NCBI RefSeq assembly: GCF_000801335.2
Contig: NZ_JSEH01000011.1
Span: 62,001-126,000, forward strand
DNA from: Desulfovibrio sp. TomC
Lineage (GTDB): Bacteria; Desulfobacterota; Desulfovibrionia; Desulfovibrionales; Desulfovibrionaceae
Direction: 5' to 3'
DNA length: 64,000 nt
Below are positions 38,901 to 57,177 of the stretch, piece by piece. Every line of letters begins with the position of its first letter. Position 1 is the stretch's first letter. The notes below the pieces were generated by a model. That model saw only the letters and a program-made list of their open reading frames with translations, was not told where the DNA came from and did no database searches. The position numbers and the translations under genes were made by a program.

Positions 38901-39416
38901 TCAGCATTGCGGCCAGTTGACGGTGGCCCGGGCCGCCAGCACCCCGGCCACGTCGCTGGCCTCGCCGACCGCTTTCTTGCCGGCCAGCCGGGCGCGCTCG
39001 ACGGCCCGGCCGTAGGTGCGCCACTTCTCGGCGGCAGCCCGTACGGCCATGGCCACCTCGCCGGCAGAAGGGGCGGTGATGCCTATCTCGTTGAAGATGT
39101 CCGGGTATTCCGCTTCAGTCGGTGTGGGATCGAGGAGCAGCGCGGCGGCCTGGATTTCTTTGGCCTGATAGGCGGCCATCTGGCCGGAGCCTGGCGTCAG
39201 GACCGTGTTGCGCAGGCGTTCGGCCATGGCATCGAGTTCGGCACACACCGATTGCCTGGCCGCATCCAGGTCCGCCTCCCATGGTTGGCCGATCGCCACA
39301 GGCGTGTCGTCCGGGACAGTGAGGATGAGGCAGCCCCGATAGCCGGTGACGACTGTCAAGTCCTGGCCGTCCGAATGCCAGCCGGTGACGAAGCCGGATC
39401 GAATGACGATTTGCAT
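38901..39416 (-). CDS. Phage tail fibre assembly-like protein (DUF4376-like)
   Basis: 171 residues. The centre (DLDAARQSVCAELDAMAERL...MAAYQAKEIQAAALLLDP) has the 'A...R...l....Y..K..EA' pattern of phage tail proteins that carry DUF4376, and the position directly after the fibre gene agrees. ATG 39416 has AGGGG six bases upstream; the longer frame to 39593 overlaps the fibre. It is the last gene of the cluster. It probably assists fibre folding or assembly, by analogy. Confidence 0.65.
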   Translation of the reverse strand: MQIVIRSGFVTGWHSDGQDLTVVTGYRGCLILTVPDDTPVAIGQPWEADLDAARQSVCAELDAMAERLRNTVLTPGSGQMAAYQAKEIQAAALLLDPTPTEAEYPDIFNEIGITAPSAGEVAMAVRAAAEKWRTYGRAVERARLAGKKAVGEASDVAGVLAARATVNWPQC

Positions 39417-39424
39417 ATGCGCCC

Positions 39425-40831
39425 CTATTGCTGAATGAACGAGTTGGCATTCCCTGACGTGTTGAGCGCCGGAGAATACGGTGTTTGGCAATTCCGAAGG
39501 ACCAGCGTCGGGCCGTAGGTATAGACGGTCGATCCGGTATAGGCGACGATGCCGGCCCATTCCGCCGAATCGATAAGGGCTGTTCCCTCCCAACTGGAGA
39601 ACTCGATGAACGATCCATTGGACGGGAAGGCTCCGTACTTGACGTTTTTAATGATCAGCCCGGCCACATGCATGACTGACCCCATGAACGCATAGACCCC
39701 GATGGGGGCTCCGGTCAGGATGTTGCACCTCCCAATGTTTGCAAGGCGGCAGGTGTTCCCATAGATACACGCCGCCCCGTTCCACGTCGCAGACGAGACG
39801 ATTTTGAACCCGTCGATCAATTTGACGGCCGAGGTGATGTAGAATCCGTGGATGTCCCCGGACAAGAGCAACTTGCAGCGGTTGCAGGGCTTGATGACGA
39901 TGCTGCCACCGCCGACCGTCGCGGCGGCAAGAGCTTCAGCCGAACACACGATGGCGGTGTTCACCCCGTCAAAATTCACGCCGGACACCAGATAGCCACC
40001 ATTCAACCCGCTCGTGCTGCTGCCGGTCAGGCCGATGATGTCCCCAATGACAATATTCTTGGCGGCGTCTGCGTTTGAAACGTAGTTACCGGCAACCGTA
40101 AACGTCTTGGCCGCCGTGTCGATGGACGCAATCGCCACTGTCGTTTCGGCCGAGGTGTTGCCGAGTATTTGGATCTTATCCGCGTCGGGATGGTCGATGG
40201 CGATAGTGCTGCTGATCGCATACGTGCCGTCCGCCACCTGGATGGTCACGGTGACGCCCGAAGCGATCAGTTTCCCGGCGATGGACCCAAGGGCTTTGCT
40301 GATGGAGGCAAACGGCATCCCTGCCGCACCCGTACCCGACACATCGCTGCCGGTGGTCGCCACATGGATTGTCGTATTGGCGCTGAGAAGCCCCTTGGCC
40401 GCCGTAGCCAGCCCGGCCGGGGTCACGGCCGTACCGGTATTGGCTCCGGCCTGCGTTTCGGCGGCCAAGGCCAGCCTGACCAGCCCGGCCAGCGTCGTCG
40501 AGGCCGACGGCAACGGGTCGCGCCCGCCAAGGGTGTGATTGTCGGCATGGCTGCACAGCGATTCCGGGATGTCGTTGCCGTGGAGAACGGCGGTCAGATT
40601 GGGGGTCAGGGCCGCTCCGGCGTCGACGGCCACGGTCACAAGGGTGCGCCCCGCCCCGGCGTCGTGGGTTGCAGTCGTCACCGTGCCCAGGCGGATGCCG
40701 TCGGCCTGGCAATCGCCCCACACTCGCAGGCCCGGGACAAATTCCCCGGTAAAGGCCTCGCCAGCGGCGTTGGACACGGCAAAGCTGTCGCCGGAAACAA
40801 AGGCCACCGAGGTATAGATGGGATCGCTCAT
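39425..40831 (-). CDS. Tail fibre/spike with parallel beta-helix-like region
   Basis: 468 residues. Residues 90-150 hold a collar-like repeat (TTLAGLVRLALAAETQAGANTGTAVTPAGLATAAKG) common in phage fibres. From residue 155 the protein reads as a right-handed beta-helix (IHVATTGSDVSGTG... VTIQVADGTYAIS..., IQILGNTS...), as in spike proteins. Probably host binding. Base use is less GC-rich in this part than in its neighbours, and Asn/Ser/Thr are frequent, which may mark later exchange. ATG 40831 has GAGGAG five bases upstream. Confidence 0.82.
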   Translation of the reverse strand: MSDPIYTSVAFVSGDSFAVSNAAGEAFTGEFVPGLRVWGDCQADGIRLGTVTTATHDAGAGRTLVTVAVDAGAALTPNLTAVLHGNDIPESLCSHADNHTLGGRDPLPSASTTLAGLVRLALAAETQAGANTGTAVTPAGLATAAKGLLSANTTIHVATTGSDVSGTGAAGMPFASISKALGSIAGKLIASGVTVTIQVADGTYAISSTIAIDHPDADKIQILGNTSAETTVAIASIDTAAKTFTVAGNYVSNADAAKNIVIGDIIGLTGSSTSGLNGGYLVSGVNFDGVNTAIVCSAEALAAATVGGGSIVIKPCNRCKLLLSGDIHGFYITSAVKLIDGFKIVSSATWNGAACIYGNTCRLANIGRCNILTGAPIGVYAFMGSVMHVAGLIIKNVKYGAFPSNGSFIEFSSWEGTALIDSAEWAGIVAYTGSTVYTYGPTLVLRNCQTPYSPALNTSGNANSFIQQ

Positions 40832-40839
40832 GGTGCTCC

Positions 40840-41136
40840 TCAGGAAAATTGCGGACGCACGACCAGGGTCGCCGTCCGGCCGGTTCCGGACCAGTCGCCC
40901 AGGGTCAGGGCCGCCTGGATTTTATACGCGCCGGCCTCGGCCAGATCGCCGGGCCCGGTGACGTAACGCAGATGCGACGCGGTCTGGCCAACGACGGCTA
41001 CAGCCGCCGGCCAGGAACGCACCGCGCCGGACGGCGTACGCACCAGCAACGCCGGGTTGCCCGCTCCGGCGATGTCGCGCCCGCAGTCCACCAGGATCTC
41101 CAGGCCCACGTCGCCTCGGTATATACTGTCCGCCAT
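40840..41136 (-). CDS. Small phage structural protein
   Basis: 98 residues, beta-rich pattern (GLEILVDCGRDIAGAGNPALLVRTPSG, AGAYKIQAALTLGDWSGTGRTATLVV) resembling an Ig-like or BppU N-terminal domain of a baseplate protein. ATG 41136 has GAGGAAC upstream. It lies between a 173-residue protein and the fibre with gaps of about ten bases. Function inferred from place only. Confidence 0.65.
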   Translation of the reverse strand: MADSIYRGDVGLEILVDCGRDIAGAGNPALLVRTPSGAVRSWPAAVAVVGQTASHLRYVTGPGDLAEAGAYKIQAALTLGDWSGTGRTATLVVRPQFS

Positions 41137-41146
41137 GGGATGTTCC

Positions 41147-41668
41147 TCACGTCTGTTCGATATCGATGGTCGAGCGCAGGATGCGCGTCAGACCCACCAG
41201 GGAAAAAAGCCTGTCCGCAATGGTTGGCGGCGAGGCCAGCCTGGCCACTTCGCGCCGTCCGGTTCCGGCCAGCCCTGCGCCAGGCCTTACGACCAAGCTG
41301 GACACCCGGGTCAGGCCCAGCGCCGTCACCGTTGCCTGGACGGGATGTCCGCCAAGGGCCAGGCCAGGCGCCCCGGCCAACCCGAACTCCTCGGCCAGTC
41401 CCAAACCTGGTTGCACATCCGCCACGAGTCTTGCCGGCCGGCCCTCGGCCGTTGCCGTCGAAACCGTCGCCGCAGTCCCCGGCCGGGCCACCGCCGTTCC
41501 CGGGGGGCAGGCCGGATGGGCCAACGGCAGGGCTGCGGCGGCCGGCGCAACCAGCCCCGCCGCCGCCGCCGTGGCCCAAACCTCCACCGCCGGCGCTTGC
41601 GCATGCTGTCCCCAGGCGGCCGGCGCGGCTGTCCAGGCCCGGGCTGTCTCGCTCCACGGCCCATTCAT
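41147..41668 (-). CDS. Phage-cluster protein of unknown function, Ala/Gly/Pro-rich
   Basis: 173 residues, mostly Ala, Gly, Pro and Val (GLVAPAAAALPLAHPACPPG). The C-terminal end is more ordinary (TIADRLFSLVGLTRILRSTI). ATG 41668 has GGAG upstream and lies three bases beyond the previous stop, in the pattern of the cluster. The opposite strand also has an open frame, but the spacing and ribosome site favour this one. No family recognised. Confidence 0.6.
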   Translation of the reverse strand: MNGPWSETARAWTAAPAAWGQHAQAPAVEVWATAAAAGLVAPAAAALPLAHPACPPGTAVARPGTAATVSTATAEGRPARLVADVQPGLGLAEEFGLAGAPGLALGGHPVQATVTALGLTRVSSLVVRPGAGLAGTGRREVARLASPPTIADRLFSLVGLTRILRSTIDIEQT

Positions 41669-41671
41669 GGG

Positions 41672-42091
41672 CTACTCCAGGGTCAGGACGCCCGAGGCGT
41701 CAAAGCGCACCGTAAACGTCCCGCCGGTCACCCCCCGGTCTGCGCCGAAATCAAGCAGGCACACCAGCGGGTTGGTCAGGCCCCCGGCCGTCTTGGCGAG
41801 ATAGATGAGCGCGTATCGCGCCGTCACCGTGGTCTCGGTCCAGGCCGGGTCGTTGGCCCGCAGCGCAGCCTTGCCGCCGGACGCACTCCAGCCGACCCCG
41901 CCAAGCGTCTGGCCGCCGGCCGCATAACCTGGGCCGAGCGCCTCGAAACCGGCCACGTCAGCCAGCCCGCCGTGGCTGGCCGAAGGGACGTAGGCGCTGG
42001 TCAGCAGGGCGCAACGCAGGGTGTCGGCGGGCAGATTGAAAATGCCCCGGCCAAGTCCTTCCTTGAAGCTCGTAAAAATGAGATCCGCCAT
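41672..42091 (-). CDS. Phage-cluster structural protein
   Basis: 139 residues: MADLIFTSFKEGLGRGIFNLPADTLRCAL, then many Gly/Ala/Val turns, ending VTGGTFTVRFDASGVLTLE. Beta-rich small structural proteins of this kind ('.F.s...g......d...dtlk.aLlt..y.p') occur in phage clusters. ATG 42091 has AGGAGG five bases upstream; the longer frame to 42124 is rejected. Function unknown. Confidence 0.7.
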   Translation of the reverse strand: MADLIFTSFKEGLGRGIFNLPADTLRCALLTSAYVPSASHGGLADVAGFEALGPGYAAGGQTLGGVGWSASGGKAALRANDPAWTETTVTARYALIYLAKTAGGLTNPLVCLLDFGADRGVTGGTFTVRFDASGVLTLE

Positions 42092-42451: not shown

Positions 42452-44371
42452 CTAGACCCGGTAATTGTAGTTGTGGTTAAAGCTCTCGCGGGAGCCGTTG
42501 GATTTCGACGTGGTCTCGCTTACCGAGCGCTGGGTGGATTCGGTGGTCGAGGTCGAGGTGCGTTCGCCAATGGATTCGCTGTAGCCGATCTGGGCCGAGG
42601 CGTTCACCGAATTGAGCGCGCTGGCCGCCATCTGGGCCGAAACCTGCGCCCCGGACCGGATTTTTTCCGATTCCAGGCGCAGCTCGCCAAGCGAGTTTTG
42701 CAGCAGCATATCCGCCTGTTTTATTGACACTTCCGCCGATTTCAAAAAGGCGTCCACCTGGGCGCCGTGGTCCCGGGAGCGCAGTTCGGCCTCGGCCTGA
42801 CCGGCCTTGAGCCCGGCGTCATAGACGCCAAGGGCCAGTTCCTTGTCCTTGAGCAGAATGTCCGCCCGGGCCTGGGCCTGACGCAACTCGGCCTCAAACC
42901 GGGTGACGTCGGCTTTGTAGGCGTCAAGGCGCACGTCATTATTTTTTGAGGCCACGGCCAGGCGCGTCTCGGCCGCGACCTTGGCCGCGTCCACCTCGGC
43001 CCCAAAGGCCCGCACCTGTTCGGCATACAGACGCGCCTTGGCCTCCTGGCCGGCCAGGGCGGCGGCGTGGGCATTAAACCGGGCGGTATTGGCGTTGACC
43101 GCCGCTACATAGCCGGCCACTTGCGATTCGTAAGCAGCCAGCCGATCCCGGCCCAGGGCCGATTTGGCCGCCGCGCCTTCCATGCGGGCCTTGTAGAGGC
43201 CAATAAGGGCCGTCACCCCGGACAGCTCGGCCAGATACAGGTCGGCCGCCCGCTTCTGGGCCTCGCCAGCCAGCCGCGCCCCTTCGATGCGCACCTTGGC
43301 TCCTTCCAATTCGGCCAGGGAGGCCCGGATGCGCGCTTCAAACACGGCGGCATCGGCCTGATAGCGGGCCAATTGGGCATTGTGCACAGCCACTTCGGCC
43401 GAAAGCGCCTCATAGCCAAACTGGGCCAGGGCCTTGGCTCCTTCGAAGGCCCGGGCAGCGGACTGGTTGAAAAGCTCGATGCCCTGGGCTTCAAGGGCCA
43501 GGGCCTGCTCCACCGCTCCCCGGCCATTTTGGCTGGCCAGCTCGGCCTGCCGGGCCAGGAGATCCAGGTTGTGCCCGGCCAGGGTTTCGGCCGCGTCCTT
43601 GGCCGCCGCCCGGAACATGACGGCCATGGGACCGGACAGGCCTGATGCGCCCCGGGCGGCAAACTCGTCGGCAATGCCGGCGAGCTTTTCCGCCAGTTCG
43701 TCTTCCATGCGCCGTCTGGCCCGCTGCCACAGGCCGTCTTCCAGTTCCGGGCCAAAGCCGGCCCCGCCGTTTCGGACCTCGGCCTCCAGACGCTCGGCCA
43801 GGGCGGCGCGCAGGGACGAATCATAGGCCGCTTCCGGCGGCAGCATGAACAGATTGCCCGGGGCGACCAGGGCCGGCATGGGCGGCCGTTCGCCCTCAAA
43901 GACCGGGGTGACGGCGGCGGGCAGGTCCGGGATACGCAACTCGGCAAAGACCGGCGGATCAGGCAGCACGATGGCCGGGTCCGGCGGCAGTTCGATCTCG
44001 GGCAGATTGGGAACCGCTCCCGGGGCCTCGGGCAGGATCATGTCCGGCGTCTCCGGCAGAATGATGTCCGGCGGCACGAGGGTAAACCGGGGCATCTCCA
44101 GCCCTTCGAGAGCCAGGCCGGGCAGATCCGGCACCGCCGGGGCAGCCACAGCCTCCAGGGACACGGCCCCAAGCTGCGGCGGGGAGGCCACGCCCGGATA
44201 CTGCGGCGCGGCCGGCAGATCGGGCAGATCCACGTCGGGATAGGTCAGCCGGGCCACGCCGCTTAGCCGGCCCAGAAAACTGATGGCCGAAACCCAGGCA
44301 TCATTGGCATAATTCTGGGCCGTATCGAACTTGTTGCGGACAATGCCGGCCGCGCCGCTGGAATCGCTCAT
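42452..44371 (-). CDS. Large coiled-coil phage protein
   Basis: 639 residues. After a short helix (GIVRNKFDTAQNYANDAWVSAISFLGRL) come about 130 residues of Pro-rich spaced repeats (LPDLPAAPQYPG, DIILPETPDMILPEAPGAVPNLPEIELPPDP). Residues 190-590 are almost continuous alpha-helix with heptads (AERLEAEVRNGG..., AAVFEARIRASLAELEGAKVRI). The end is Ser/Thr-rich and closes NHNYNYRV. It may be an internal virion, needle or fibre-stalk protein. ATG 44371 has GGAGG upstream and overlaps the previous stop as ATGA. No homologue recognised. Confidence 0.75.
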   Translation of the reverse strand: MSDSSGAAGIVRNKFDTAQNYANDAWVSAISFLGRLSGVARLTYPDVDLPDLPAAPQYPGVASPPQLGAVSLEAVAAPAVPDLPGLALEGLEMPRFTLVPPDIILPETPDMILPEAPGAVPNLPEIELPPDPAIVLPDPPVFAELRIPDLPAAVTPVFEGERPPMPALVAPGNLFMLPPEAAYDSSLRAALAERLEAEVRNGGAGFGPELEDGLWQRARRRMEDELAEKLAGIADEFAARGASGLSGPMAVMFRAAAKDAAETLAGHNLDLLARQAELASQNGRGAVEQALALEAQGIELFNQSAARAFEGAKALAQFGYEALSAEVAVHNAQLARYQADAAVFEARIRASLAELEGAKVRIEGARLAGEAQKRAADLYLAELSGVTALIGLYKARMEGAAAKSALGRDRLAAYESQVAGYVAAVNANTARFNAHAAALAGQEAKARLYAEQVRAFGAEVDAAKVAAETRLAVASKNNDVRLDAYKADVTRFEAELRQAQARADILLKDKELALGVYDAGLKAGQAEAELRSRDHGAQVDAFLKSAEVSIKQADMLLQNSLGELRLESEKIRSGAQVSAQMAASALNSVNASAQIGYSESIGERTSTSTTESTQRSVSETTSKSNGSRESFNHNYNYRV

Positions 44372-45786
44372 GAGGCCTCCTTGGCAATGGTGATGGGGAC
44401 AAGCCCCTGGGCTGCGGCCTGGGCCACCTCGTGGTCATCGGCCACAAAAATCCCGGCCAGCGCCTCCAGGGACAACAGCCAGGCCTGGCCGGGCGACAGG
44501 GCGTAGTGGAAAAAGCGCGGCAGGGCCACGTCCATGGCCGGATTCAGGCGGTAGGCGCTTATGGCCTCGCCATCCTTCTCATTTCGAAGCGTCCAGGCAT
44601 TGACCCCGCTGGCTTGGTAGGTACAGGCCGCATCCAGGGCGCACAGGGGCATGGCCCCGGTGTAGGCCGCGCCCTGGGCCTCGTCTGCCCGGGTGACGAA
44701 CAACTGCACCGTGCCGTCGGCCTCGTGAGTCATGACCGCATGGTGCCACAGCCCGAGTTCCAGCGGGTCAGACACGGCCGGGACCAGGCCGAACTGGCTC
44801 TCGAAATGGGACAGCCGGGCAGCCAGCAGCCGGTTGCCGCCGCTTAGGAACAGGCCGGCCGCCTGCAGGCCCATCTCGAAGCCGTCGGGATACGGGTAGG
44901 CCTTGCCGGCGGCGTCGCGGTAGCCCTCCCCGGCCAGGACCGGCGCGCCGTCGCAGACCGCCAACGCCCGTCTGGCCCCGGTGAGCCGGTCGGTGTTGGC
45001 GGCGTAATCATTATTCCAAGGCGACCAGGGGTAGGTCAGGTCCTCTTCCCAGTCCGGGTGGAGATGGGGCGAGCAAAACCCGATCAGCGGCGACAGGTCC
45101 CCGGGACAGTCGTGGACAAAGGCCGCTCCATCCGCACTTCGCAGCAGGTAGGCGCGAATCGGATTCAAAACGCCCCTGGCGTCAAAGGTATAGTCGTACT
45201 CCAAAGGAGCATTCAGGCGCACCAGACAGCTCACGGAAAAAGGCGCGTCGTCAGGAATGTGCCCCCGGCCATAGAGCAGGCCCGAGGCCGCCCCGCCCGG
45301 CAACCGAAACACGCCGATGTCCCGGGCGATACCGGCCTGGGGCAGTCCGGCGTAGGCAGGCAGCCCGGCCTCGGCCGCCGGGACAATGGTCACGGCCGAA
45401 CCAAGGCCCAGGCTCCAACCAGCCAGATCGCCGTCCGGCACGACGTTTTGCAGGCTGTCCAGGCCATCGTAGCGGGCCAGACAGTCCGGGATGACGTAGA
45501 ACTCGCCTTGCCGCCCGGGTCGGCGGGCAGGCAGGGCACTCCCACCAGCCTCCCTCTCGCTGCTGCGCGCGCCAAGAATCTCGATATAATCCTGATCCCC
45601 CAGCCGGCGGCACAGGATGCGCTCCCCGGTTTCCAGCGCCACATGGCGGTCGTAGACAGGCAGATCCGAGACGTTTTCCCGGTGCATGACGGCAAGCTCC
45701 CGCAGGGCGTCACGGCGAAGCGGCGCGAGCAGGCCGGCATCGCCCACCAGCCGCACCCGTGGCGCGGGCCGAAAATCCGTTTCCAT
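44368..45786 (-). CDS. LamG-like/concanavalin-type phage protein
   Basis: 472 residues. The middle and end have a LamG-like pattern (FSVSCLVRLNAPLEYDYTFDARG..., LGLWHHAVMTHEADGTVQLFVTRADEAQGAAYTGAM), typical of carbohydrate-binding jelly-roll domains. ATG 45786 has GGAGG five bases upstream and overlaps the preceding stop (TGATG). A GTG one codon earlier is possible. Role likely in tail-tip binding to surface glycans. The fold call is from pattern only. Confidence 0.7.
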   Translation of the reverse strand: METDFRPAPRVRLVGDAGLLAPLRRDALRELAVMHRENVSDLPVYDRHVALETGERILCRRLGDQDYIEILGARSSEREAGGSALPARRPGRQGEFYVIPDCLARYDGLDSLQNVVPDGDLAGWSLGLGSAVTIVPAAEAGLPAYAGLPQAGIARDIGVFRLPGGAASGLLYGRGHIPDDAPFSVSCLVRLNAPLEYDYTFDARGVLNPIRAYLLRSADGAAFVHDCPGDLSPLIGFCSPHLHPDWEEDLTYPWSPWNNDYAANTDRLTGARRALAVCDGAPVLAGEGYRDAAGKAYPYPDGFEMGLQAAGLFLSGGNRLLAARLSHFESQFGLVPAVSDPLELGLWHHAVMTHEADGTVQLFVTRADEAQGAAYTGAMPLCALDAACTYQASGVNAWTLRNEKDGEAISAYRLNPAMDVALPRFFHYALSPGQAWLLSLEALAGIFVADDHEVAQAAAQGLVPITIAKEAS

Positions 45787-46244
45787 CACACCCTCCGGTC
45801 CAGGGGCAGCAGGGTCAATTCGATGGCGGCGATGTCCAACACCGCACCGTCCTCGCCAGCCAGACGTACTTCCCAGGTCCGGCCAAGCCCCCGAGGAAGC
45901 CGCGCCACGGTGCGACCGGGGAAGCCGTTTGCGCTGCCCGGCCCGACCTCGCCGTCAAGTTCGCTGCCGGCGTCGCTTCGGGCCTCAATAGCCAACCGGC
46001 CGGCAACCACGCCCTCGACCGCCACCCCCAACAGCCGGGCCGGGAGGCCGGCAGCAACCGGGGGCAGGGCCAGGCGCGCGGCAATAGGCGCACCGTCGTC
46101 CGTATCGCCGCCGATGCGGCCAAGGGACGCCCCATCGCTCACCATTACCCGCCCGCCGTGCAGGCAGGCGGCAACAACCGGCAACCCGGCCATGGCGGTC
46201 AGCGCCCCGCTCTCCAACTCCAGGGAATATCCGTACGCCGTCAT
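45786..46244 (-). CDS. Phage-cluster protein of unknown function
   Basis: 152 residues, beta-rich with Gly/Ala (MTAYGYSLELESGALTAMAGLPVVAACLHGGRVMVSDG). Ends in LPLDRRV. ATG 46244 overlaps the stop of the transglutaminase-like gene as ATGA and has GGAGGA seven bases upstream; ATG 46250 is less well spaced. No family recognised. Confidence 0.65.
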   Translation of the reverse strand: MTAYGYSLELESGALTAMAGLPVVAACLHGGRVMVSDGASLGRIGGDTDDGAPIAARLALPPVAAGLPARLLGVAVEGVVAGRLAIEARSDAGSELDGEVGPGSANGFPGRTVARLPRGLGRTWEVRLAGEDGAVLDIAAIELTLLPLDRRV

Positions 46245-48750: not shown

Positions 48751-49332
48751 CTAGGCTTGAAGGGAGAGGTCGCCGCCAAGTTGCAGGCGACCAGACACAA
48801 TGCGCCCGCCCGGCGGCACGGAGCCGGCGAACCAGGCGACCCGCACACGGTTGTAGTCCTCGGCGGCCGCGCCGTCCGCGGCGTCCTGGAGCCACACGGC
48901 CTCGGGCGCAACCGGCGGCGCGGACAGGTCTTTGGCAACCGGAATCAGGGTGTTCCAGAGGTCCAGGGTTTCAAAGGCCCGGCAGACGCCGGAGGCCTCC
49001 ACCCGTATCCCCTTGACCACGGCTAGGGTGAAAAACGCCGCTTCGGCATCGGCCAGATAGAACCGGCCGTAGCCGTAGTGGGAAATTTTGAGGTCAAAGA
49101 CATCATCGCGGCCGGTGTCGGCGTAGATGATTTCCGTGGTCGGCAGCGACAGGCCCACGGCCAGTTCACCAAAGGTCTGGCCGCTTTTCGGGGTCTGGGC
49201 CAGGGTGACCCGGCTGCCGAAGGAATAGGGCGTGCTGCGGGCCTCGGAAAAGGCCCGGCCGCACACCACCGCGATGCGGGCCGGAAACCCGGCGAAGCGG
49301 CAGGGCAACGATTGCGGATAGGTTTCGGACAT
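48751..49332 (-). CDS. Phage-cluster protein of unknown function
   Basis: 193 residues, beta-rich: YPQSLPCRFAGFPARIAVVCGRAF, FGSRVTLAQTPKSGQTFGELAVGLSLPTTEI, closing GGRIVSGRLQLGGDLSLQA. ATG 49332 has GGAAGGAAAGG upstream. No family recognised. Its placement between the repeat-containing gap and the discoidin-like gene suggests a tail or baseplate component. Confidence 0.65.
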   Translation of the reverse strand: MSETYPQSLPCRFAGFPARIAVVCGRAFSEARSTPYSFGSRVTLAQTPKSGQTFGELAVGLSLPTTEIIYADTGRDDVFDLKISHYGYGRFYLADAEAAFFTLAVVKGIRVEASGVCRAFETLDLWNTLIPVAKDLSAPPVAPEAVWLQDAADGAAAEDYNRVRVAWFAGSVPPGGRIVSGRLQLGGDLSLQA

Positions 49333-49437
49333 GGCCTTTCCTTCCGGACCCATGGCCCGGTCTGCGCACTTCCTCTCGGGGCCGGAACCAATTCCCGGCC
49401 CCCTGTCGTCGTAGGCGCTGTCTGGCCGTCACCGCTA

Positions 49438-49605
49438 GGATTCCAAAAGGAATCAGGCCCGTTGCAACAGCGGTTCCCGTCAGGCTCAAACGCCGACTGT
49501 CCCGGCCCAGAACCGACCGGATTATCCACCAGCGCCAAGCGCCCCTTGACAAACTTCTCCCATTGCCGGGGTCCGGGGGGATCATCCCCCCGGACCCCGG
49601 AAGCA
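49438..49605 (-). repeat. Composite intergenic repeat with swapped end modules
   Basis: On the minus strand it starts 32 bases past the stop of the 152-residue gene with a perfect 17-bp type A hairpin (CCGGGGTCCGGGGGGAT and complement). A spacer and the conserved GGCGTTTGAGCC...GACGGGAACC segment follow, and it ends in a reduced type B-like GATTCC / GGAATC hairpin. The hairpins are in the opposite order to the copies at 42 and 58 kb. It fills most of the gap 49333-49636. Confidence 0.8.
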
Positions 49606-49636
49606 CTCTTTCTCTTCCTGCCTCTCCCTCTCCCCA

Positions 49637-50095
49637 TTAACTCGCCGGCATGGTGACCACGAAGCTGTCGATGGTGGTGGTGGCCCCGGCGGTGATGGCC
49701 GTGCTGGACATATTGAGCTGCGCCCCGGAGGTGGACACCGAGCCGTCGAAGCGGGCGTGGCTGGTATCGGCTCCGGCGGTGCGGTCGTTGGCGTAGAACC
49801 GGAACCAGCCGGCCGTGCCCGAGGTGGTGGCCGCTCCGGACCAGACCTCGCCCGAGGCCTTGGCGCAGGCTCCGGCCGAAGGGGCGGCGAAGTTAAGGCC
49901 ATTGGTCGGCGTTCCCGGGGTAAACGCCCCGGAAGAGACGGTGATTTCCAGCAGCGGACTGGCTCCTTCGCCGTCGTCGGCGCTGGCCGGCTGCACCCCC
50001 GGGAAGATGCGGATGACGCCGTTTTGCATGATGGTCTTGAAGCTCGAAGTGCCAAGCAGCATGTTGCGAAGGCCGGTGGAAAGACGCAGAGCCAT
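49637..50095 (-). CDS. Phage-cluster structural protein
   Basis: 152 residues. MALRLSTGLRNMLLGTSSFKTIMQNGVIRIFPGVQPASADD..., then a beta-rich end (GQ-free, Thr/Ser/Ala: SGAQLNMSSTAITAGATTTIDSF). ATG 50095 has AAGGAG six bases upstream. It follows the propeller-like gene by 38 bases. It could be a tail or head decoration protein. No family recognised. Confidence 0.7.
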   Translation of the reverse strand: MALRLSTGLRNMLLGTSSFKTIMQNGVIRIFPGVQPASADDGEGASPLLEITVSSGAFTPGTPTNGLNFAAPSAGACAKASGEVWSGAATTSGTAGWFRFYANDRTAGADTSHARFDGSVSTSGAQLNMSSTAITAGATTTIDSFVVTMPAS

Positions 50096-50133: not shown

Positions 50134-51045
50134 TTAGTGACTTGCAAACAACAGGTAGCGGCCACGGGTGGCCGCGGCAGCAACCCGGCCTGGGGCCGGG
50201 ATGGCGGCAGCCGCAATACGCCGGACCCGTCCGCCCGACAGCCCCAGGTGGATGCCGTCGGGCGCGGCCCAGACAGCGCCGTCGCCGTCAAGACTGCTCC
50301 CGGCTACGCTCTCGTGGCGGCCGGCGGATAGCAGGGCCAGACTGCCCACTATGGGCGCAGCCTGATCCACCCGGGCAAAGGTCATCTTTTTCGGATCGGT
50401 TCCGGCCACATGGACCACGCCGGCGTCGTCGCCGACGAAAAGCCCGCCGCCGACCGGGGCCAGCATCCGGATGCGTCCGACAAAGGGCGGCAGAAAGCCG
50501 CCCAGGCCGTCCACCCAGTCATAAAGCCCGGCCCCTTCGGTGAAGTGGACGCAGTTTCCGACCGCAATCCAGATCCGCCCGGCATGATAAGCCAGGGCGT
50601 GTCCGACCGGAGGCGGCCCAAAGCGCCCTATGCGGTCCGGGCCGGGATAGCGCTGTCCGGCCCAGGCCTCGGCCACACCCTGTCGGATGCGGCCGGTTTC
50701 AAAGCCGTTGGCGAAGTAGACGTCACTCCCAACCGTTACAAAGGCCATGGACGCGCCCGGAGTCAGGCCGGGGCGCAAAAGCGCCGGCTCGCCCTGGCCC
50801 GGGATCAGATACAGCCCGTCGCAGCACACGCCGTAGAGGTTGGCTCCATCGGAGAAAAGACCCGAAAAGCCATGCCCGCTTTGACGCTCAAAGCCCGGCC
50901 GGCGCATGAGACGTCCGGCCACCACATCCACATTGACGGCCTCGGCCAGTTCGTACCGGCCGGTGTCCGGGTCGCAGACCAAGCCTTGCGGCGCAGCCGA
51001 CGCGCCGAGCCCCAGACAGGTGGTCAGGCGAAGCGGCCGGCTCAC
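50134..51045 (-). CDS. Propeller-like tail protein (P22 gp10-like position)
   Basis: 303 residues with repeated beta blades: NLYGVCCDGLYLIPG, GSDVYFANGFETGRI, GRIWIAVGNCVHFTEG, GGLFVGDDAGVVHVAGTDP. That rhythm, the N-terminal 'lt.c.g.......pe' opening and the place right after the adaptor recall podovirus tail-hub proteins such as P22 gp10. GTG 51045 has GGGGAGG upstream and overlaps the adaptor stop as GTGA. Identity is inferred from order and pattern. Confidence 0.65.
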   Translation of the reverse strand: MSRPLRLTTCLGLGASAAPQGLVCDPDTGRYELAEAVNVDVVAGRLMRRPGFERQSGHGFSGLFSDGANLYGVCCDGLYLIPGQGEPALLRPGLTPGASMAFVTVGSDVYFANGFETGRIRQGVAEAWAGQRYPGPDRIGRFGPPPVGHALAYHAGRIWIAVGNCVHFTEGAGLYDWVDGLGGFLPPFVGRIRMLAPVGGGLFVGDDAGVVHVAGTDPKKMTFARVDQAAPIVGSLALLSAGRHESVAGSSLDGDGAVWAAPDGIHLGLSGGRVRRIAAAAIPAPGRVAAAATRGRYLLFASH

Positions 51046-51764
51046 GGCCAGTCCTCCCCAAAGCCGTAGGGATCGCGCCCAGTCGGCACGTCCACGGGTT
51101 CGGTCTGCTGCGGCCCGTGCAAGGCGACCAGTTCGGCCAGCCAGGCCTCGTAGCGTCGCCCATAGGCCAGGGTCTGGACTTTGCTGCCATCAGCCCCTTC
51201 CTCCAGGCGCTCGAAAAGCTCCCGACAGGCAAAGGCAACCAGCAAGGGTCCGGCCAGATGCAGCGGCAGGCCATCGGGTTTGTCGCCCGCCCCGACCAGG
51301 GGCTGGGGCAGCCGGTAATAGTCGATCTCGATGCCAACGCCCTCCCGGGGCACGGGCCGGACATGCAGCCGACCGCCGGCCGCTGCGCCAAAGCGCACCC
51401 GACCCGGGGTCTGGCCCGGCGCAAGCCGCCTCAGGGCGGCCAGATCCGGGGCCAACCGGACCCGGCCGCAGGCGGGGAGGAGGACAGCAGCATCAGGTCC
51501 GTGCATCAAATCCGCCGGCAAAGCCGCGTCGGCCTGTCCCGGTTCCAGGCTGATCCTGGCCCGGGTCGCCAGCTCAGGCAGACGTGCAGCCCCGGCGGCT
51601 GCGTACAGGCCGCGCCCGAGCGCCCGGACGATGTCTTCCTCGGACACGCCCGGATCACCGACAATGCCGGCCACTTCGGCTACGAGACTGGCCAGGGTGT
51701 CGGGCAATGCGCGGCGAAGCCCCTCGGCATCCGCCCGGGGCAAGGAGATTGCGGCCAAAGCCAT
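51042..51764 (-). CDS. Head-tail adaptor-like protein
   Basis: 240 residues. The end has the adaptor signature of phage connector proteins: IDYYRLPQPLVGAGDKPDGLPLHLAGPLLVAFACRELFERL..., then QTLAYGRRYEAWLAELV. Early helix LPDTLASLVAEVAGIVGD. It probably links portal and tail. ATG 51764. The order scaffold, capsid, adaptor, tail protein is standard. Low-complexity Ala/Gly/Pro/Arg stretches lie in its middle. Confidence 0.72.
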   Translation of the reverse strand: MALAAISLPRADAEGLRRALPDTLASLVAEVAGIVGDPGVSEEDIVRALGRGLYAAAGAARLPELATRARISLEPGQADAALPADLMHGPDAAVLLPACGRVRLAPDLAALRRLAPGQTPGRVRFGAAAGGRLHVRPVPREGVGIEIDYYRLPQPLVGAGDKPDGLPLHLAGPLLVAFACRELFERLEEGADGSKVQTLAYGRRYEAWLAELVALHGPQQTEPVDVPTGRDPYGFGEDWP

Positions 51765-51794: not shown

Positions 51795-52514
51795 CTAATC
51801 GATGGTCAGCAGGCAGGGCTGATGCCGGCCGTCGGCAAAGGCGGCGGCAAAGGCCACGCCGGCCACAGGCTGGTCCACGTCGAGGGTGGCGTTCATGGCA
51901 GCCAGACTCCCAGGCGCGGCCCCGGGCACGAGCATGCTGCCGACCCCGGCCGTGCCGGCGGCCAGACAGCAGCCCACGCCCCCGGTCTGGGCAAAGAAGT
52001 AATGCCCGGCCGGCACGTTACACGTGGCCACGCCGGCCGGCAGGTTCTCCTCGGTGGCCGAAGCGGCCACGCCGCACCAGGGCGAGGGAATAAGCGACAC
52101 CCGGGAATCGGTGGTGAGCGCCGCCCGCACCGGCTCGGCCAGGGTGCAAACGACCGTGCCGCCAGCCGGGCAGGCGGTATTGGACAGGATGCGATACTGC
52201 CGGCCCTGACCGTCGCTGCCGGCCACCTGCAGGTAGCCGTCCTCGTAGGCATTTTCGGCCACGGGACTGATGCCGACGGTCACCTGGACCACGCGGTCGC
52301 CAACCGAGGCCGGGGTGGCCGGGCGGTTGACGTGCTGGGCCTCGGCCAGCGGGGCCAGGGTCAGGGAGCCGGCGGCGATGCTGGCGGAAGCGGCCTTGGC
52401 GTAGCGAAACTTGCGTCCGTCGGCGGTGATGCGCAGGGCGCCGATGGCTTCGCGCTTGGCCGGCGAGGTTTCGCCCACATCCTGGGTAAAGGAGAGCTTC
52501 ATGGGTTGGGCCAT
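51795..52514 (-). CDS. Decoration or capsid-associated protein
   Basis: 239 residues. MAQPMKLSFTQDVGETSPAKREAIGALRI at the start and a beta/Gly-rich body with several Cys (GTVVCTLAEPV, NPW-free SPWCGVAAS, VGCCLAAG). Between the capsid gene (31 bases upstream) and the adaptor, where decoration proteins sit in related clusters. ATG 52514 has GGAGGAAAA upstream. No family recognised. Confidence 0.65.
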   Translation of the reverse strand: MAQPMKLSFTQDVGETSPAKREAIGALRITADGRKFRYAKAASASIAAGSLTLAPLAEAQHVNRPATPASVGDRVVQVTVGISPVAENAYEDGYLQVAGSDGQGRQYRILSNTACPAGGTVVCTLAEPVRAALTTDSRVSLIPSPWCGVAASATEENLPAGVATCNVPAGHYFFAQTGGVGCCLAAGTAGVGSMLVPGAAPGSLAAMNATLDVDQPVAGVAFAAAFADGRHQPCLLTID

Positions 52515-52545: not shown

Positions 52546-53517
52546 CTAGGACAGGTTGGCGTGGCAGGCATGGGCCTTTCTGTTGGAACAGATCAGGTTG
52601 CCGTGCCACAGGATCTTCATGGACCGGCCGGCCGGCCCGGCCAGATCGACCCAGGGCTGGCGGGCGAAAAAGCCGTTCTGGTGGATGGCGAAGCCCAGAT
52701 GGTTGGTGTTGACGGCAAAGACGTGGCCAGCCGGGCAGTAGTCGTCAGCGGCCAGGACCATGCCTTCGTAGACAAGATGGGCAAAACCGGCCTGGGCCAC
52801 GCCGTCGTCGGTGACAAAACGCTGCTGCACTTGCAGGATGCGCGAGACTTTGTTGTAGAGCGACTCGGTGGTCACAGCCACGTTGGGCTTGCCGTCGCGG
52901 CCATCGGAGACCTTGGCGGCGCTGCGCAGGGCCTGCAGCACGTCCAGGCTCATGGTCTCGGGGGCGTCAATGGTCACGCCCCGCCAGGGCTTGGCTCCGT
53001 CGGAAGCCACCAGATCGTTTTCGGCAATGCCGCCGTAGGGCTTGTCCGCGTCGGAGCTGGTCAGGGCGCGCAGGCCGGTCAGGGTCGGGGCCTCGTCGCC
53101 GGCCGCGGAATAGAGGGTGGAGGCCAGCCAGCTCGAGCAAGTGCGCTGGGCCGTCTCGATCTTCTGGGTGACGAACTGGACCACGGCATAGTCGCCAGCC
53201 GCAGCCACCTCGTCGGTCAGGTAGACCGTGGCGTTGCCGTAGGCGTGCTTCCAGTTGAAGGCTGCGGCGTTGATGGTCGCCCGGTCGTCGCTGGAGAGCG
53301 TGTCGGCCCGGGTAAAAAAGCCGCCTTCGGCGTCGGAATAGGACAGGGGCACGCGAATCTTCTCGCCCCCGCCCGGCCGCTCGAACAGGCCGGCCTGCCG
53401 GTTCATGAGGAGATCCAGGAGAAAGGAGTTGCGGAAATAGATGTCCACGGCCCGGCCGCCGGCTGCGGCGAAATAATCGCTGGTGATGGACTCGATTTCG
53501 GTCAGGGAAAGCGACAT
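52546..53517 (-). CDS. Major capsid protein
   Basis: 323 residues. The N-terminal helix MSLSLTEIESITSDYFAAAGGRAVDIYFRNSFLLDLLM, then KIRVPLSYSDAEGGFFTRADTLSSDD and GVTIDAPETMSLDVLQALRSAAKV fit HK97-fold phage coat proteins. It ends in ICSNRKAHACHANLS with two Cys. ATG 53517 has AAGGAGG upstream. The scaffold gene lies 18 bases before it. The size and its place between scaffold and decoration proteins support the coat role. The specific family was not confirmed. Confidence 0.82.
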   Translation of the reverse strand: MSLSLTEIESITSDYFAAAGGRAVDIYFRNSFLLDLLMNRQAGLFERPGGGEKIRVPLSYSDAEGGFFTRADTLSSDDRATINAAAFNWKHAYGNATVYLTDEVAAAGDYAVVQFVTQKIETAQRTCSSWLASTLYSAAGDEAPTLTGLRALTSSDADKPYGGIAENDLVASDGAKPWRGVTIDAPETMSLDVLQALRSAAKVSDGRDGKPNVAVTTESLYNKVSRILQVQQRFVTDDGVAQAGFAHLVYEGMVLAADDYCPAGHVFAVNTNHLGFAIHQNGFFARQPWVDLAGPAGRSMKILWHGNLICSNRKAHACHANLS

Positions 53518-53535: not shown

Positions 53536-54081
53536 TTACAGGCCGGCGTTGCGGCGACGGGCGGCCATGCGGGCGGCCAGGACGGCGTTTATGCCGCCGA
53601 ATTGTTCCGGTGCAGCCAGGTCCGCATCCGCGCCGGCCGTGCGGGCCTGGGCGGTTGCCGACGGCGATGCGCCAAGGGCAGCGGCCAGGCGTTTGGAGCG
53701 CACCCGTTCGATGGTGCGGGCCTCGGCCTCGGTCTCGGCTTCGGCCCGAGCCTTGGCCAATTCCTCGGCAGCGACCTGCTGTTGGGCGGACAGATGATGG
53801 GCGTAGTACGCGCCGACATCGTCAAGCAGTGGATTGTCGCGCTTCTGGGCGTCCAAAGCGCCGCTGGCCGCCAGTTCCCGGAAATCGGGATGACGCTCGG
53901 CAAACTGCTCGGCCAGCGCCATCCGCTCGGCCTCCTGGCGTCTGGCCGCAACCGCGTCGAGACGGGCCTCGACCAGATCGTCCAGACGCTTTTCCAGGTC
54001 GGCAAAAACCGACTCCAGGCCGGCGATGCCGGGGTCCGCGACCGCAGCGGTTCCGGGCTTGCCTGTGGCTTCTGATTCCAT
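53536..54081 (-). CDS. Scaffolding-like protein
   Basis: 181 residues, highly charged helix: ADLEKRLDDLVEARLDAVAARRQEAERMALAEQFAERHPDFREL, then AKARAEAETEAEARTIERVRSKRLAAALG, ending INAVLAARMAARRRNAGL. Acidic helical scaffolds with a basic C-terminal helix that contacts coat are typical of phages such as P22. ATG 54081 has GGGGAGG upstream; the frame to 54213 is rejected. It is directly upstream of the capsid gene. Confidence 0.75.
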   Translation of the reverse strand: MESEATGKPGTAAVADPGIAGLESVFADLEKRLDDLVEARLDAVAARRQEAERMALAEQFAERHPDFRELAASGALDAQKRDNPLLDDVGAYYAHHLSAQQQVAAEELAKARAEAETEAEARTIERVRSKRLAAALGASPSATAQARTAGADADLAAPEQFGGINAVLAARMAARRRNAGL

Positions 54082-54172
54082 GGCCTCCCCTTTTTGGGAT
54101 GTAGGTTGACGCGACAAGGCCCGGCACGCCTTTGCGCGCCGGGCCTTGTCACGGACACTGGTTGCGGGCCGG

Positions 54173-54436
54173 CTAGGGCATGAGATAGCTCCCCTCCCGC
54201 AGCAGGGTTTCAAAGCGCGCTGCCGTGGCGGGATAGTCGGCGTTGCGATCGGTCAGCGCCTTTTGGCCGGTCCGGCCAAGGCGCATGAGCATCCGTTCCA
54301 AGTCGGCCAAGGCAATGGCGGCATCAGCTGCCGGCCGGGCGTGGTAAAACGGCTTGGGCAAAGCTCCGCCCCGGGCCAGTTCACTGCGGCGGCGGCGATA
54401 CCAGCCGTAGGCGTCGGCAGCTCCGTGAAAGCGCAT
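54173..54436 (-). CDS. Small phage-cluster protein with repeat-derived ribosome site
   Basis: 87 residues: MRFHGAADAYGWYRRRRSELA..., then PAADAAIALADLERMLMRLGRTGQKALTD. Mostly helical and basic. ATG 54436 has GGAGG seven bases upstream, and that GGAGG is part of the repeat element at 54443-54486. The longer frame to 54538 reads through the repeat. No family recognised. Confidence 0.65.
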   Translation of the reverse strand: MRFHGAADAYGWYRRRRSELARGGALPKPFYHARPAADAAIALADLERMLMRLGRTGQKALTDRNADYPATAARFETLLREGSYLMP

Positions 54437-54442
54437 AAGAGG

Positions 54443-54588
54443 GCCTCCGGCGGCCGGGGATGATCCCCCCGGACCCCTGCAAAGGGAAAAGTTTATAATG
54501 CGATGCGGCAGACGCCACAGACTGCCCCTGCACCCCATTGTCTTCCATAAGGGATTCCAAAGGGGTCACCCCTTTGGCCGCCGGAGGC
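54443..54588. repeat. Two intergenic repeat modules in opposite orientation
   Basis: Type A (plus orientation, 54443-54486) and type B (minus orientation, 54551-54588) flank a 64-base spacer. The B copy follows the stop of the zinc-ribbon gene at 54615 by 26 bases. The A copy ends next to the start of the 87-residue gene and supplies its GGAGG. Confidence 0.85.
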
Positions 54589-54614
54589 ACTCTTTATCTA
54601 AATATATCTCAGCG

Positions 54615-54980
54615 CTACACGCTGCCACGCCGGGTCTTGAAGCGTTCCAGGACTTCGCGGCCAACGGCCGGCGACGTCGTCACCCCGCGCCGGCCTTCGC
54701 CGTCTTCCAGAGGCCGGAGGCCTTCGCCGTGCATCCAGCGGCGGTAGTTGGCCCGGCTGGGATCGGCCAGAAAGGCCTGGACATGGGGTTTGTCCGAATC
54801 CTTCTCAGCCACGACAGCGACCGATTCCAGCCAGTCGGCATCGGCCCGATAGCCCCGGCCGACAGAAAGGAGCCGTTTGGCCGAGCCGCCGCACAGGCAC
54901 GTTCCCTCCCCGGCGTCCATGGCGGCCATGGCCTCAAACGTCCGGCCGCAGACGCGGCAGGTGAAATCATAGAGCGGCAT
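54615..54980 (-). CDS. FmdB-type zinc-ribbon protein
   Basis: 121 residues. The start MPLYDFTCRVCGRTFEA and CLCGG are an FmdB-like zinc ribbon (C8-x2-C11 and C28-x-C30). The rest is charged with EGLRPLEDGEGRRGVTTSPAVGREVL. FmdB-type ribbons are found in cellular regulators and in some phages. ATG 54980 has AGGGGATG upstream. In the cluster it lies between portal and the 87-residue protein, an unusual place. Function unknown. Confidence 0.7.
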   Translation of the reverse strand: MPLYDFTCRVCGRTFEAMAAMDAGEGTCLCGGSAKRLLSVGRGYRADADWLESVAVVAEKDSDKPHVQAFLADPSRANYRRWMHGEGLRPLEDGEGRRGVTTSPAVGREVLERFKTRRGSV

Positions 54981-55105
54981 CGCATCCCCTTGGTGCTTGG
55001 CGTTTCGATACCCGTGCCCCGCATGGCGTCAGGCTGCCCCTGACCGGCCGGCCCACGGGCCTTCCGGACGGGCGCGACCAACTGCATTTGCCGGTTGCAG
55101 CCGGC

Positions 55106-56890
55106 TTAGGCCCCTCCCATGCTTCCCCCGCGCCCCGCCAAGGGGGTCCGGGGGGGATTATCCCCCCCGGCAGGGGAGTTCGAGGGGGCAGCGCCCCCTC
55201 GATTGGCCTCCGGCTCCAGGCGCGCCAGCACGGCGGCACGGCTGTTCCAGTCGAGCTTTTCCAGCAAATCCTGGCGGTCAATGGCCCCCATTTCGTACAG
55301 GGCCAGGGCTTCCTCGCGCTGCTGCACCCGGGAGACGGGCATGGTGGAGCCGGAAACGACGGTGAGTCGCGCCGGGACCCGGCAGTTGTGTCCGTAGATC
55401 GGTTCCACGATCACGGAGCCGTGCTCGGCAAAGCTGATCCAGCGTTCCTCGGTGTACCAGTTCTGCATGTGGCTTAAAAACATCCGGCCGCGTTCGCGCA
55501 CCAGCCGGGAATAGTTTCGTATTTTGCCGCGAAGGAGGGTTGCGGCCTGTTCAATCAGCGCGGCAATGGCCTGGTAGGCCACGACCGGATGGTCCGGAGC
55601 GGCGGCGCGCTCCAGTTCGCCGATGCCGGCGATCTGGCTGAACAGTTCCCGGTAGATGCCAAGCACGCTTTCAATGTCCTTGGTGTTGTTGGCAAATTCC
55701 AGATAGCGAATGCCTTGGGCGGCAGCCATCGACGTCGGGTTGACGATGCCCTGGCGGTTGGTAAAGGCCGCGTTGGCCACGCCGGAATCCCGGGGATTGA
55801 TGATCTTGGGCCTTGCACAGCGATCCTTATGATAGGTGAGTTGGGACAGGCACTTGTTGATTTCAAGCTGGAGTTCGGCCAACTGCTCGAAGTCGGACGC
55901 CCCCCACAGGCTGGCCGGGTCGGTCAGGGAATTGACCAGGGCAAAGGGATAGCGGTCGTAAAGGTAGCAGGCCATGGCCTGTTCCGGGGTCAGGGCCGGG
56001 TTGATCGAGGGGTTGGGCCGATCAGACAGGACCAGGCTGCCGGGACCGGCCACGGTGACGCAGCGGATGAACCCCGGATAGAGCGGCCCGGTTTCGGTCA
56101 TGGTGTAGTCGCGCACCCAGCACTCGCACACAAGGGTCGTGTCCTGGCCAAATCCATCCCCGCCGCCGACCCCGGCCAAGGTCCGCACCAGTTCGCCAAA
56201 GCGGGCGAAAAGGCCCTGGCGACGCCCGTCGCCGAGCATGATTTCCCGCCGCCCGTCGCCAAGGTCGGCCAACATATCGGCGTCGCTTGTAAGCTTCCCG
56301 GCTGCTTCGGGCCAACGCCGTGCGACCTGGCGCAGGCTCATGGGGGTGAAATGGAGCACGGCTTCGGCTTCCTGAATGTCCAAGCAGTTGGCCGGATAGA
56401 CGCCGAAAGCAAAGGGATCGACGGCAATCGTTCGCACCTCGCCCAGGCCGTATTCCAGGTCCGGATCGAAAACGACTTTCTCCACGGCCACGCCGTAGGT
56501 TTCGCCGTTTATGACCGACCGCTCGTAGACCGCCTGCTGCTCCTGCTCGCTCCACCACCAGGCGGCGGCCCGTTCCAGGACGGAAAACACCTGTTCGTCG
56601 CCGGCCGGGCCGACCCGACTGACGTTAAACGTCGGCTGGTTGTCCGTGAGCATATTGACGGTGCGCTGCCGGTGCAGATGCAGCAGGTTGGCCCCGAGCT
56701 GCGGCACGCCGGGTTGGGCCGGTCCCTGCCAGGTGCGGCCCTGGCCCAGACGGTAGTTGCGGGTCCAGGCGTCGGGCAAGCCCTGGCGGACCTTGTCGCG
56801 CACCACGGTTTCGAGCAATTCGAAGACGCGGCGGCCGACGAGATCGGGCGTTTCAGCGCTGGGCAAAAGCTGGTTGACGGCGTCGGACAT
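55106..56890 (-). CDS. Phage portal protein
   Basis: 594 residues. Features of a P22-type portal: TRNYRLGQGRTWQGPAQPGVPQLGANLLHLHRQRTVNML..., ITTER-free helical body, CYLYDRYPFALVNSLTDPASLWGASDFEQLAELQLEIN and RLVRERGRMFLSHMQNWYT. The portal forms the dodecameric DNA gate at one capsid vertex. ATG 56890 has GGGGGAAC upstream and overlaps the previous stop (TGATG). About residues 563-583 are encoded by a host-type intergenic repeat (55141-55201), giving the Gly/Pro/Ser-rich end GGAAPSNSPAGGDNPPRTPL. The real C-terminus before that insertion would be near DWNSRAAVLARLEPE. Confidence 0.88.
   Translation of the reverse strand: MSDAVNQLLPSAETPDLVGRRVFELLETVVRDKVRQGLPDAWTRNYRLGQGRTWQGPAQPGVPQLGANLLHLHRQRTVNMLTDNQPTFNVSRVGPAGDEQVFSVLERAAAWWWSEQEQQAVYERSVINGETYGVAVEKVVFDPDLEYGLGEVRTIAVDPFAFGVYPANCLDIQEAEAVLHFTPMSLRQVARRWPEAAGKLTSDADMLADLGDGRREIMLGDGRRQGLFARFGELVRTLAGVGGGDGFGQDTTLVCECWVRDYTMTETGPLYPGFIRCVTVAGPGSLVLSDRPNPSINPALTPEQAMACYLYDRYPFALVNSLTDPASLWGASDFEQLAELQLEINKCLSQLTYHKDRCARPKIINPRDSGVANAAFTNRQGIVNPTSMAAAQGIRYLEFANNTKDIESVLGIYRELFSQIAGIGELERAAAPDHPVVAYQAIAALIEQAATLLRGKIRNYSRLVRERGRMFLSHMQNWYTEERWISFAEHGSVIVEPIYGHNCRVPARLTVVSGSTMPVSRVQQREEALALYEMGAIDRQDLLEKLDWNSRAAVLARLEPEANRGGAAPSNSPAGGDNPPRTPLAGRGGSMGGA
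55141..55201 (-). repeat. Intergenic repeat inside the portal coding sequence
   Basis: Minus strand: a CGAGGGGGC / GCCCCCTCG hairpin, then CCGGGGGGG / CCCCCCCGG and GGACCCC. The same pair of modules occurs after the lipoprotein gene at 21186-21236. It keeps the portal frame open and ends 33 bases before the stop codon. Confidence 0.85.
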
Positions 56891-57177
56891 CAGTTCCCCC
56901 GTTTGGCAGACGTGCGTTTGGCCTGGGCAGCCACGGGCCGGGGCAGTAAAAACTCGCCGGCATCGGTGGCAAGACTCCCCTGTCCGGCCGGATCGTAACC
57001 CTGGGGATGATGCCGGCAGTGGGGACAGCGCACCTCCTCCCAGGCGGCGTCAGGAACAAAGGGCGGCGCAAACCCCGGCGCAAGCGGTCCGAACCCGGCG
57101 CTGGCAAGCGGCAAAGACAGGCGGGCGGGGTCAAAGGCGGCAATGTCGGCATGGCAGAGTCGGCAGCGCAGGATCAT
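56890..57177 (-). CDS. Small Cys-rich protein at the head of the phage cluster
   Basis: 95 residues. Two CxxC pairs, LRCRLCHADI and VRCPHCRHH, suggest a zinc-binding fold. ATG 57177 has AAGGAG nine bases upstream; ATG 57186 touches the ribosome site and is unlikely. It is the first gene of the minus-strand cluster and overlaps the portal start (TGATG). In a canonical podovirus order a terminase would precede the portal; here this protein takes that place. No terminase motif is seen. Confidence 0.65.
   Translation of the reverse strand: MILRCRLCHADIAAFDPARLSLPLASAGFGPLAPGFAPPFVPDAAWEEVRCPHCRHHPQGYDPAGQGSLATDAGEFLLPRPVAAQAKRTSAKRGN

Follow-up and report, generated by a model that had tools for sequence, protein, structure and literature searches.

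What maintains a set of phage particle genes in a bacterial chromosome when no gene for filling the particles with DNA lies beside it? The question is raised by a 64,000-nucleotide stretch of the genome of Desulfovibrio sp. TomC (contig NZ_JSEH01000011.1, positions 62,001 to 126,000; hereafter the window). On its minus strand, from position 57186 down to 38901, the window carries a run of phage morphogenesis genes that form an intact short-tailed head and tail set (locus 1). The genome (G000) is a draft of 84 contigs, and the window is a stretch of its contig C11. Among the open reading frames (ORFs) of the cluster, no terminase, integrase or replication gene was recognized, positions 1-34171 of the window not having been scanned against protein families. 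No repressor gene was recognized with the set, the window contains no tRNA, and whole-genome searches for the family of the large terminase subunit (TerL) revealed no TerL within the window's stretch of C11. The lack of terminase, integrase and replication genes agrees with a preliminary description of this DNA, which had considered a domesticated device such as a gene transfer agent (GTA) and a packaging gene elsewhere in the genome. The packaging gene was indeed found at a distance, and the former idea holds as far as the sequence goes.

We propose that the cluster is part of a domesticated, vertically inherited podovirus that probably works like a GTA and is encoded at two chromosomal loci. 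We file it as GTA-like and not as a proven GTA. The phage-derived head, tail and terminase genes are present and intact; they descend with the host, and purifying selection acts on them. Among the scanned ORFs of the two loci, none was recognized as serving integration or replication, the rest of the genome not having been searched for such genes. In a functional prophage, the structural genes would be accompanied by those for terminase, integrase and replication; here, the terminase lies apart from them in all 14 genus genomes. No adjacent terminase or integrase was found, and the cluster is not missing from close relatives, as a recently acquired prophage would be. Named records (S. aerotolerans DSM 16695, S. 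magneticus UBA7700, Desulfovibrio sp. DV) identify the genus, represented by the window genome and 13 relatives, as Solidesulfovibrio.

The terminase locus and the shared upstream element

The packaging genes of the window genome are located on a separate contig. Locus 2 (C31:9127-12845) encodes a zinc-ribbon protein, two small proteins with hydrophobic segments, the small terminase subunit (TerS; PF03592, 2.7e-27), and TerL (phrog_979, 5.6e-39). With the TerL of G004b, a related prophage described below, as the query, a TerL at a separate locus was detected in all 14 genus genomes, with 68-71% identity in 13 of them and as two pieces (67 and 71%) in G007; G003 has an additional distant match. 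The sequence GGAAGPGKS, presumably a Walker-A-like motif, occurs in 17 of 19 aligned TerL rows. PDB sequence searches with TerL and with the capsid profile gave no matches. The neighbourhood of locus 2 is conserved, a TPR gene adjoining TerL in 12 of 13 relatives, while the 13th has a short contig. With a window genome in 84 contigs, the separation of packaging and head genes might be an artefact of draft assembly. This reading is refuted by G004, G005, G008, and G010, assemblies of 1 to 6 contigs that show the same separation at matching host sites. In these, the two loci are approximately 0.27 Mb (G008), 0.43 Mb (G004), 0.61 Mb (G005, circle assumed), and 0.62 Mb (G010) apart.

Comparison of the upstream regions revealed an element common to both operons. 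The copy of the particle operon lies on the minus strand at 57225-57268, with a 31-bp core at 57230-57260, and the second copy precedes the terminase operon at G000:C31:9071-9101. Genomes were searched with a 31-base pattern, derived from the two loci themselves, allowing up to two mismatches. This search yielded 30 matches in 17 genomes, 28 of which correspond to both loci in each of the 14 genus genomes and two to a third site; the reversed pattern had no match in the same 17 genomes. Among 247 genomes of the family, the element was present in 14, all of this genus, and absent from the other 233. The reversed control pattern gave one chance match in each of seven family genomes, so that a lone weak extra site is not strong. 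A weight matrix trained on seven genomes scored 45-62 bits at 13 sites of seven others, the next best value being 7.1 in 582,502 positions; this held-out test scanned the retrieved loci, and the genome-wide evidence is that of the pattern searches. The element was not found at the portal operon of G004b. Since one and the same element stands at both loci and is limited to them, the two loci are very probably switched on together. We infer that the element would serve as a promoter or activator site.

The third, weaker site (two mismatches) is orthologous in G008 (C1:4386171-4386201) and G005 (C2:5096078-5096108) and exceeds the shuffled level in these two genomes only. It lies 69 bp upstream of a gene for a 227-aa protein, which itself stands between DnaJ-type and LpxK genes. 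This protein may resemble phage lysozymes; it had no Pfam, PHROG, NCBIfam or PDB match. Relatives occur in 12 of the 14 genus genomes and in all three genomes of another genus, g44. The gene is a lead only, because the element accompanies it in G008 and G005 alone, the G005 copy is split into two pieces ~1.4 kb from each other, and G002 has its sole copy on the same contig as another terminase.

Distribution, inheritance and selection

The portal gene was found in 15 of the 59 genomes searched, namely in G000, in 13 of 13 other genus members (74-92% identity), and in G029 from another genus. Of the 348 genomes of the order, 18 carry capsid relatives: 13 of the 14 Solidesulfovibrio genomes, three g44 genomes, G029, and a genome with a marginal match. 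These relatives span four of the order's 59 genera, one of them marginally. The capsid was not seen in G002, whose assembly is 69% complete and whose contig ends inside the portal gene. When 395 genomes from the whole phylum were searched with a profile, two further weak matches outside the family emerged. With capsid relatives in only 18 of the 348 genomes, a tie to Dd1, the Desulfovibrio agent mentioned in the preliminary description, is left unsupported. At one end, the cluster borders on genes for TrmO and a membrane protein, at the other on genes for an HD-domain response regulator and a TPR protein. The latter two follow it in all nine relatives with a contig spanning that end, and the former two precede it in 9 of the 12 whose contig reaches far enough, being absent there in G010, G011, and G004. 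The cluster is syntenic across the genus and, as the same genes recur in the same order genus-wide, it is far beyond chance.

The reading frames are intact in 319 of 325 copies of 22 genes from 17 genomes of two genera; five copies are cut by contig ends and one, the TerL gene of G007, is broken. These copies include 22 from G000, and three fast genes (the 173-aa gene, the fibre gene, and the 171-aa gene) were left out. Trees of the particle genes, the terminase genes, rpoB, and the flanking genes largely share their splits: particle/terminase 10 of 11, particle/rpoB 6 of 8, particle/flank 5 of 7, terminase/rpoB 7 of 8, terminase/flank 6 of 7, and rpoB/flank 5 of 6. In every conflict, the support on at least one side does not exceed 62. 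G002, G007, and G121 are not included in the particle and terminase trees; the rpoB tree is without G002 and G009, which had no rpoB match, and without G029, which was dropped.

The ratio of nonsynonymous to synonymous substitutions (dN/dS) was determined by the Nei-Gojobori method for five close pairs (fewer for some genes). It is low for the capsid (0.02-0.08), TerL (0.08-0.16), the portal (0.10-0.27), and a 639-aa protein (0.10-0.19), and amounts to 0.18-0.45 for the faster-evolving scaffold. Flanking host genes range from 0.05 to 0.31; the core cluster genes fall in the same range, and their dS values do likewise. The conserved flanks, the agreement with the rpoB tree, the low capsid dN/dS, and the intact copies lead us to conclude that both loci have descended with the host and that purifying selection acts on their core genes. 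A decaying, cryptic prophage that persists by chance would account for the separated halves and for the integration, replication, and repressor genes that were not recognized. It is highly improbable in view of the 319 intact copies, the low dN/dS values, and the upstream element, which all 14 genomes keep at both loci.

The fibre gene (39425-40831) diverges far beyond its neighbours, with a dS of 0.78-1.75, and had no match in G004 and G011, which suggests that its receptor-binding parts have been replaced or exchanged. Such diversification would fit delivery of DNA as well as killing, and the sequence does not separate the two. The domesticated particle might thus pack host DNA but kill without delivering it, like PBSX, a comparison also made in the accessible text on the Faecalibacterium agent FpGTA (PMC12946183). 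We consider this rather unlikely: the head, portal, adaptor, and full terminase are all under purifying selection, which is more than a killing tail needs.

Amino acid composition provides a further indication. According to the available part of a published analysis, proteins of the RcGTA type contain fewer carbons than their viral homologues (PMC7360931). Measured against the G004b prophage, the one comparator, the cluster contains less carbon per residue in 11 of 13 genes (means of 4.657 and 4.787, p = 0.0024). The lower carbon cost is support for a domesticated particle, not proof.

Related loci bear on the origin of the set. In G123 of genus g44, a single locus comprises a histidine kinase, a zinc ribbon, TerS, TerL, a TPR gene, a zinc ribbon, portal, capsid, tail, and fibre genes, while in G122 of the same genus the modules are ~87 kb apart on opposite strands. 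The TPR gene and the kinase also adjoin the terminase locus in Solidesulfovibrio. Because G123 keeps both modules in one locus, the set was probably split later, from a one-locus ancestral arrangement. The simplest history would be that one phage inserted in a common ancestor and that a later rearrangement separated the halves, both of which were kept. A phage obliged to package its own genome would hardly survive such a split, whereas a host-serving device could. The G004b prophage (G004:C1, ~700-748 kb) is ~58-59% (portal), 71% (capsid), and 68% (TerL) identical to G000 and has a similar gene order in the head region, but its TerS and TerL genes lie directly upstream of its portal gene. Its stretch also contains serine recombinase, RecT, VRR-NUC, and MucR-like genes, the equipment of a mobile phage, which was not recognized in the cluster.

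Two side observations concern these relatives. An IS1595 transposase is inserted upstream of the G004b terminase. In G029, a portal, capsid, head protein, and TerL of the family lie within ~22 kb (C40:234336-256043) and no tail gene was matched; this locus is probably a prophage with another tail. Compared with phage records, the portal had a sole match, Methanosarcina virus MetMV, with 26% identity, and a comparison with viral contigs gave no relative. With MetMV at 26% only, this podovirus lineage seems barely sampled among isolated phages.

Genes of the particle cluster

All cluster genes are encoded on the minus strand. The preliminary description had listed portal, scaffold, capsid, adaptor, and a full tail set. 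Portal, capsid, and adaptor are intact, while the scaffold is recognized solely from its position and composition and the tail genes form a short-tail set. The spacing, described as tight, is so for most neighbours, which overlap or are separated by fewer than 35 bp; the exceptions are five gaps of ~125-530 bp.

The operon begins with the gene for a 98-aa zinc-ribbon-like protein (56890-57186), named for the CxxC seen in its sequence; it is kept in every genus genome covering that stretch, and also in g44, G004b, and G029. It is followed by the P22-like portal (55106-56890; phrog_156, 1.1e-24; P22_portal, 3.3e-10), a conserved 121-aa zinc-ribbon protein (54615-54980; Pfam family Zn_ribbon_8), the probable scaffold of 181 aa (53536-54081), and the major capsid protein of the podovirus type (52546-53517; phrog_9953, 1.7e-27; NCBIfam capsid_maj_Podo, 200 bits at a cut-off of 80). 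A conserved 239-aa head protein (51795-52514) has no role assigned. The portal-tail adaptor (51042-51764) has a structural model that matches adaptors of short-tailed phages. Next are the head-closure protein Hc3 (50134-51045; phrog_8040, 1.6e-20), whose model was poor (pLDDT 53) and was not used, and a 152-aa virion structural protein (49637-50095; phrog_3758).

The tail region includes a conserved 200-aa protein (48751-49353), followed by a 222-aa protein (48073-48741) with a weak F5/8 type C (discoidin) match under the Pfam cut-off. Further downstream are a 542-aa protein with a Transglut_core domain (46241-47869), conserved proteins of 152 aa (45786-46244) and 472 aa (44368-45786), the coiled-coil-rich 639-aa protein (42452-44371; phrog_10969, 2.2e-80), which has no function assigned, and a 139-aa protein (41672-42091; phrog_644). 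The run ends with the fast-evolving 173-aa protein (41147-41668), a conserved 98-aa protein (40840-41136), the tail or collar fibre, diversified between species, and the fibre-linked 171-aa protein (38901-39416; phrog_32459). No tube, sheath or tape-measure protein was recognized in the cluster; given this and the adaptor model, the tail set is of the short, podovirus type.

The ORFs at 54680-55087, 54173-54538, 49023-49637, and 57590-58342 were rejected as shadow frames, the conserved genes being those at 54615-54980 and 48751-49353. Between TrmO and the cluster, a small conserved gene on the plus strand (57381-57818) encodes a membrane segment and a coiled coil; it occurs in 13 relatives.

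Proposed function and comparison with known systems

A common regulator would act at the shared element and turn on both operons together in some cells. The particle operon would then supply empty heads, which TerS and TerL would load with host chromosome until full, before short tails with the species-specific fibre are added. The cells would lyse, perhaps by means of the small locus 2 proteins as holin and spanin and an unlinked lysis enzyme; the match to a holin is weak (0.16). The particles would finally carry host DNA to relatives. As no integrase, replication or repressor gene was recognized and the packaging genes lie 0.27-0.62 Mb from the head genes in the finished chromosomes, the set is hardly self-propagating, and its upkeep is most simply explained by selection on the host.

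Several observations weigh against this GTA-like function. Some genes evolve faster, with dN/dS values of 0.12-0.50 (TerS), 0.34-0.52 (542-aa transglutaminase), 0.22-0.64 (first zinc-ribbon gene), and 0.29-0.63 (152-aa gene at 45786). The portal and the 639-aa protein are not carbon-poorer than their counterparts in the single comparator, G004b. TerL is in two pieces in G007, an assembly that is 89% complete. In genus g44, the element had no match and the two small locus 2 genes are absent. No endolysin was firmly assigned, no genome-wide search for one having been made. Finally, the TerS of ~184 aa has a full Terminase_2 domain including the N-terminal DNA-binding part. The accessible text of published work describes GTA TerS proteins without a DNA-binding domain (PMC6854486, PMC11841831); this is a reported shared trait of GTAs, not a definition, and the locus 2 TerS does not display it.

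The retained DNA-binding domain leaves room for a packaging start at preferred sites. It would also suit a satellite/helper system, in which the particles are supplied to a specific mobile element and TerS recognizes one pac site. We regard this as improbable, since the genus-wide vertical inheritance and the confinement of the upstream element to two loci call for no such mobile element; none was seen, no search aimed at one having been made. More tentatively, the GTA-like set might be a bipartite, host-owned podovirus machine in which a single dedicated switch governs the two operons as a private regulon. Its TerS would read DNA and start packaging from chosen host sites, making it a directed rather than a random GTA since the common ancestor of the two genera; we consider this possible, though doubtful.

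Few kinds of GTA are known, five being listed in the available part of one account (PMC11409702), and here a candidate is found in all 14 genomes examined of an environmental genus, S. magneticus among its members. The split between packaging and head genes, together with one element at both operons, makes the system tractable, since the regulon can be predicted from a short sequence. Other tamed phages may likewise be traceable from sequence alone, by way of a terminase that lies far from the head genes and shares their upstream element. No report of the system described here was found in the mostly open-access literature on GTAs and prophages in Desulfovibrio, Dd1, D. magneticus, Desulfovibrionales, and Solidesulfovibrio. 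The accessible text of Crispim et al. (PMC6006170) does not name the particle locus.

How does the set compare with known GTAs? Dd1, whose host Desulfovibrio desulfuricans belongs to the same bacterial family in the broad sense, is reported to have a very short tail. Its TerS, Ddes_0720, has 125 aa according to the accessible text (PMC6854486), compared with ~184 aa here, which sets the two apart by description and not by direct sequence comparison.

RcGTA and the Solidesulfovibrio set are both multi-locus systems, although RcGTA particles are long-tailed, in contrast to the short-tailed set here. As far as the available parts of the sources describe them, RcGTA and the other alphaproteobacterial type I GTAs also resemble it in host-congruent inheritance, purifying selection, the lack of replication or integration genes, and perhaps carbon-poor proteins (PMC9662315, PMC7360931). 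Their TerS is described as being without the DNA-binding domain that is present here.

The nearest precedent in design is FpGTA, likened here by description and not by sequence. The accessible text calls it the first podovirus-like GTA and reports two operons and observed particles (PMC12946183), while the Solidesulfovibrio set is known from its genes alone. FpGTA resembles this set in being podovirus-like, in its two operons (~125 kb apart in one strain), in its presence across the Faecalibacterium genomes examined, and in having no replication genes. Its TerS, as described there, has no obvious DNA-binding domain, whereas the Solidesulfovibrio TerS keeps one. In FpGTA, TerS and TerL are encoded with the portal and the capsid, and the second operon carries tail and lysis genes; in Solidesulfovibrio, it is TerS and TerL that have moved away.

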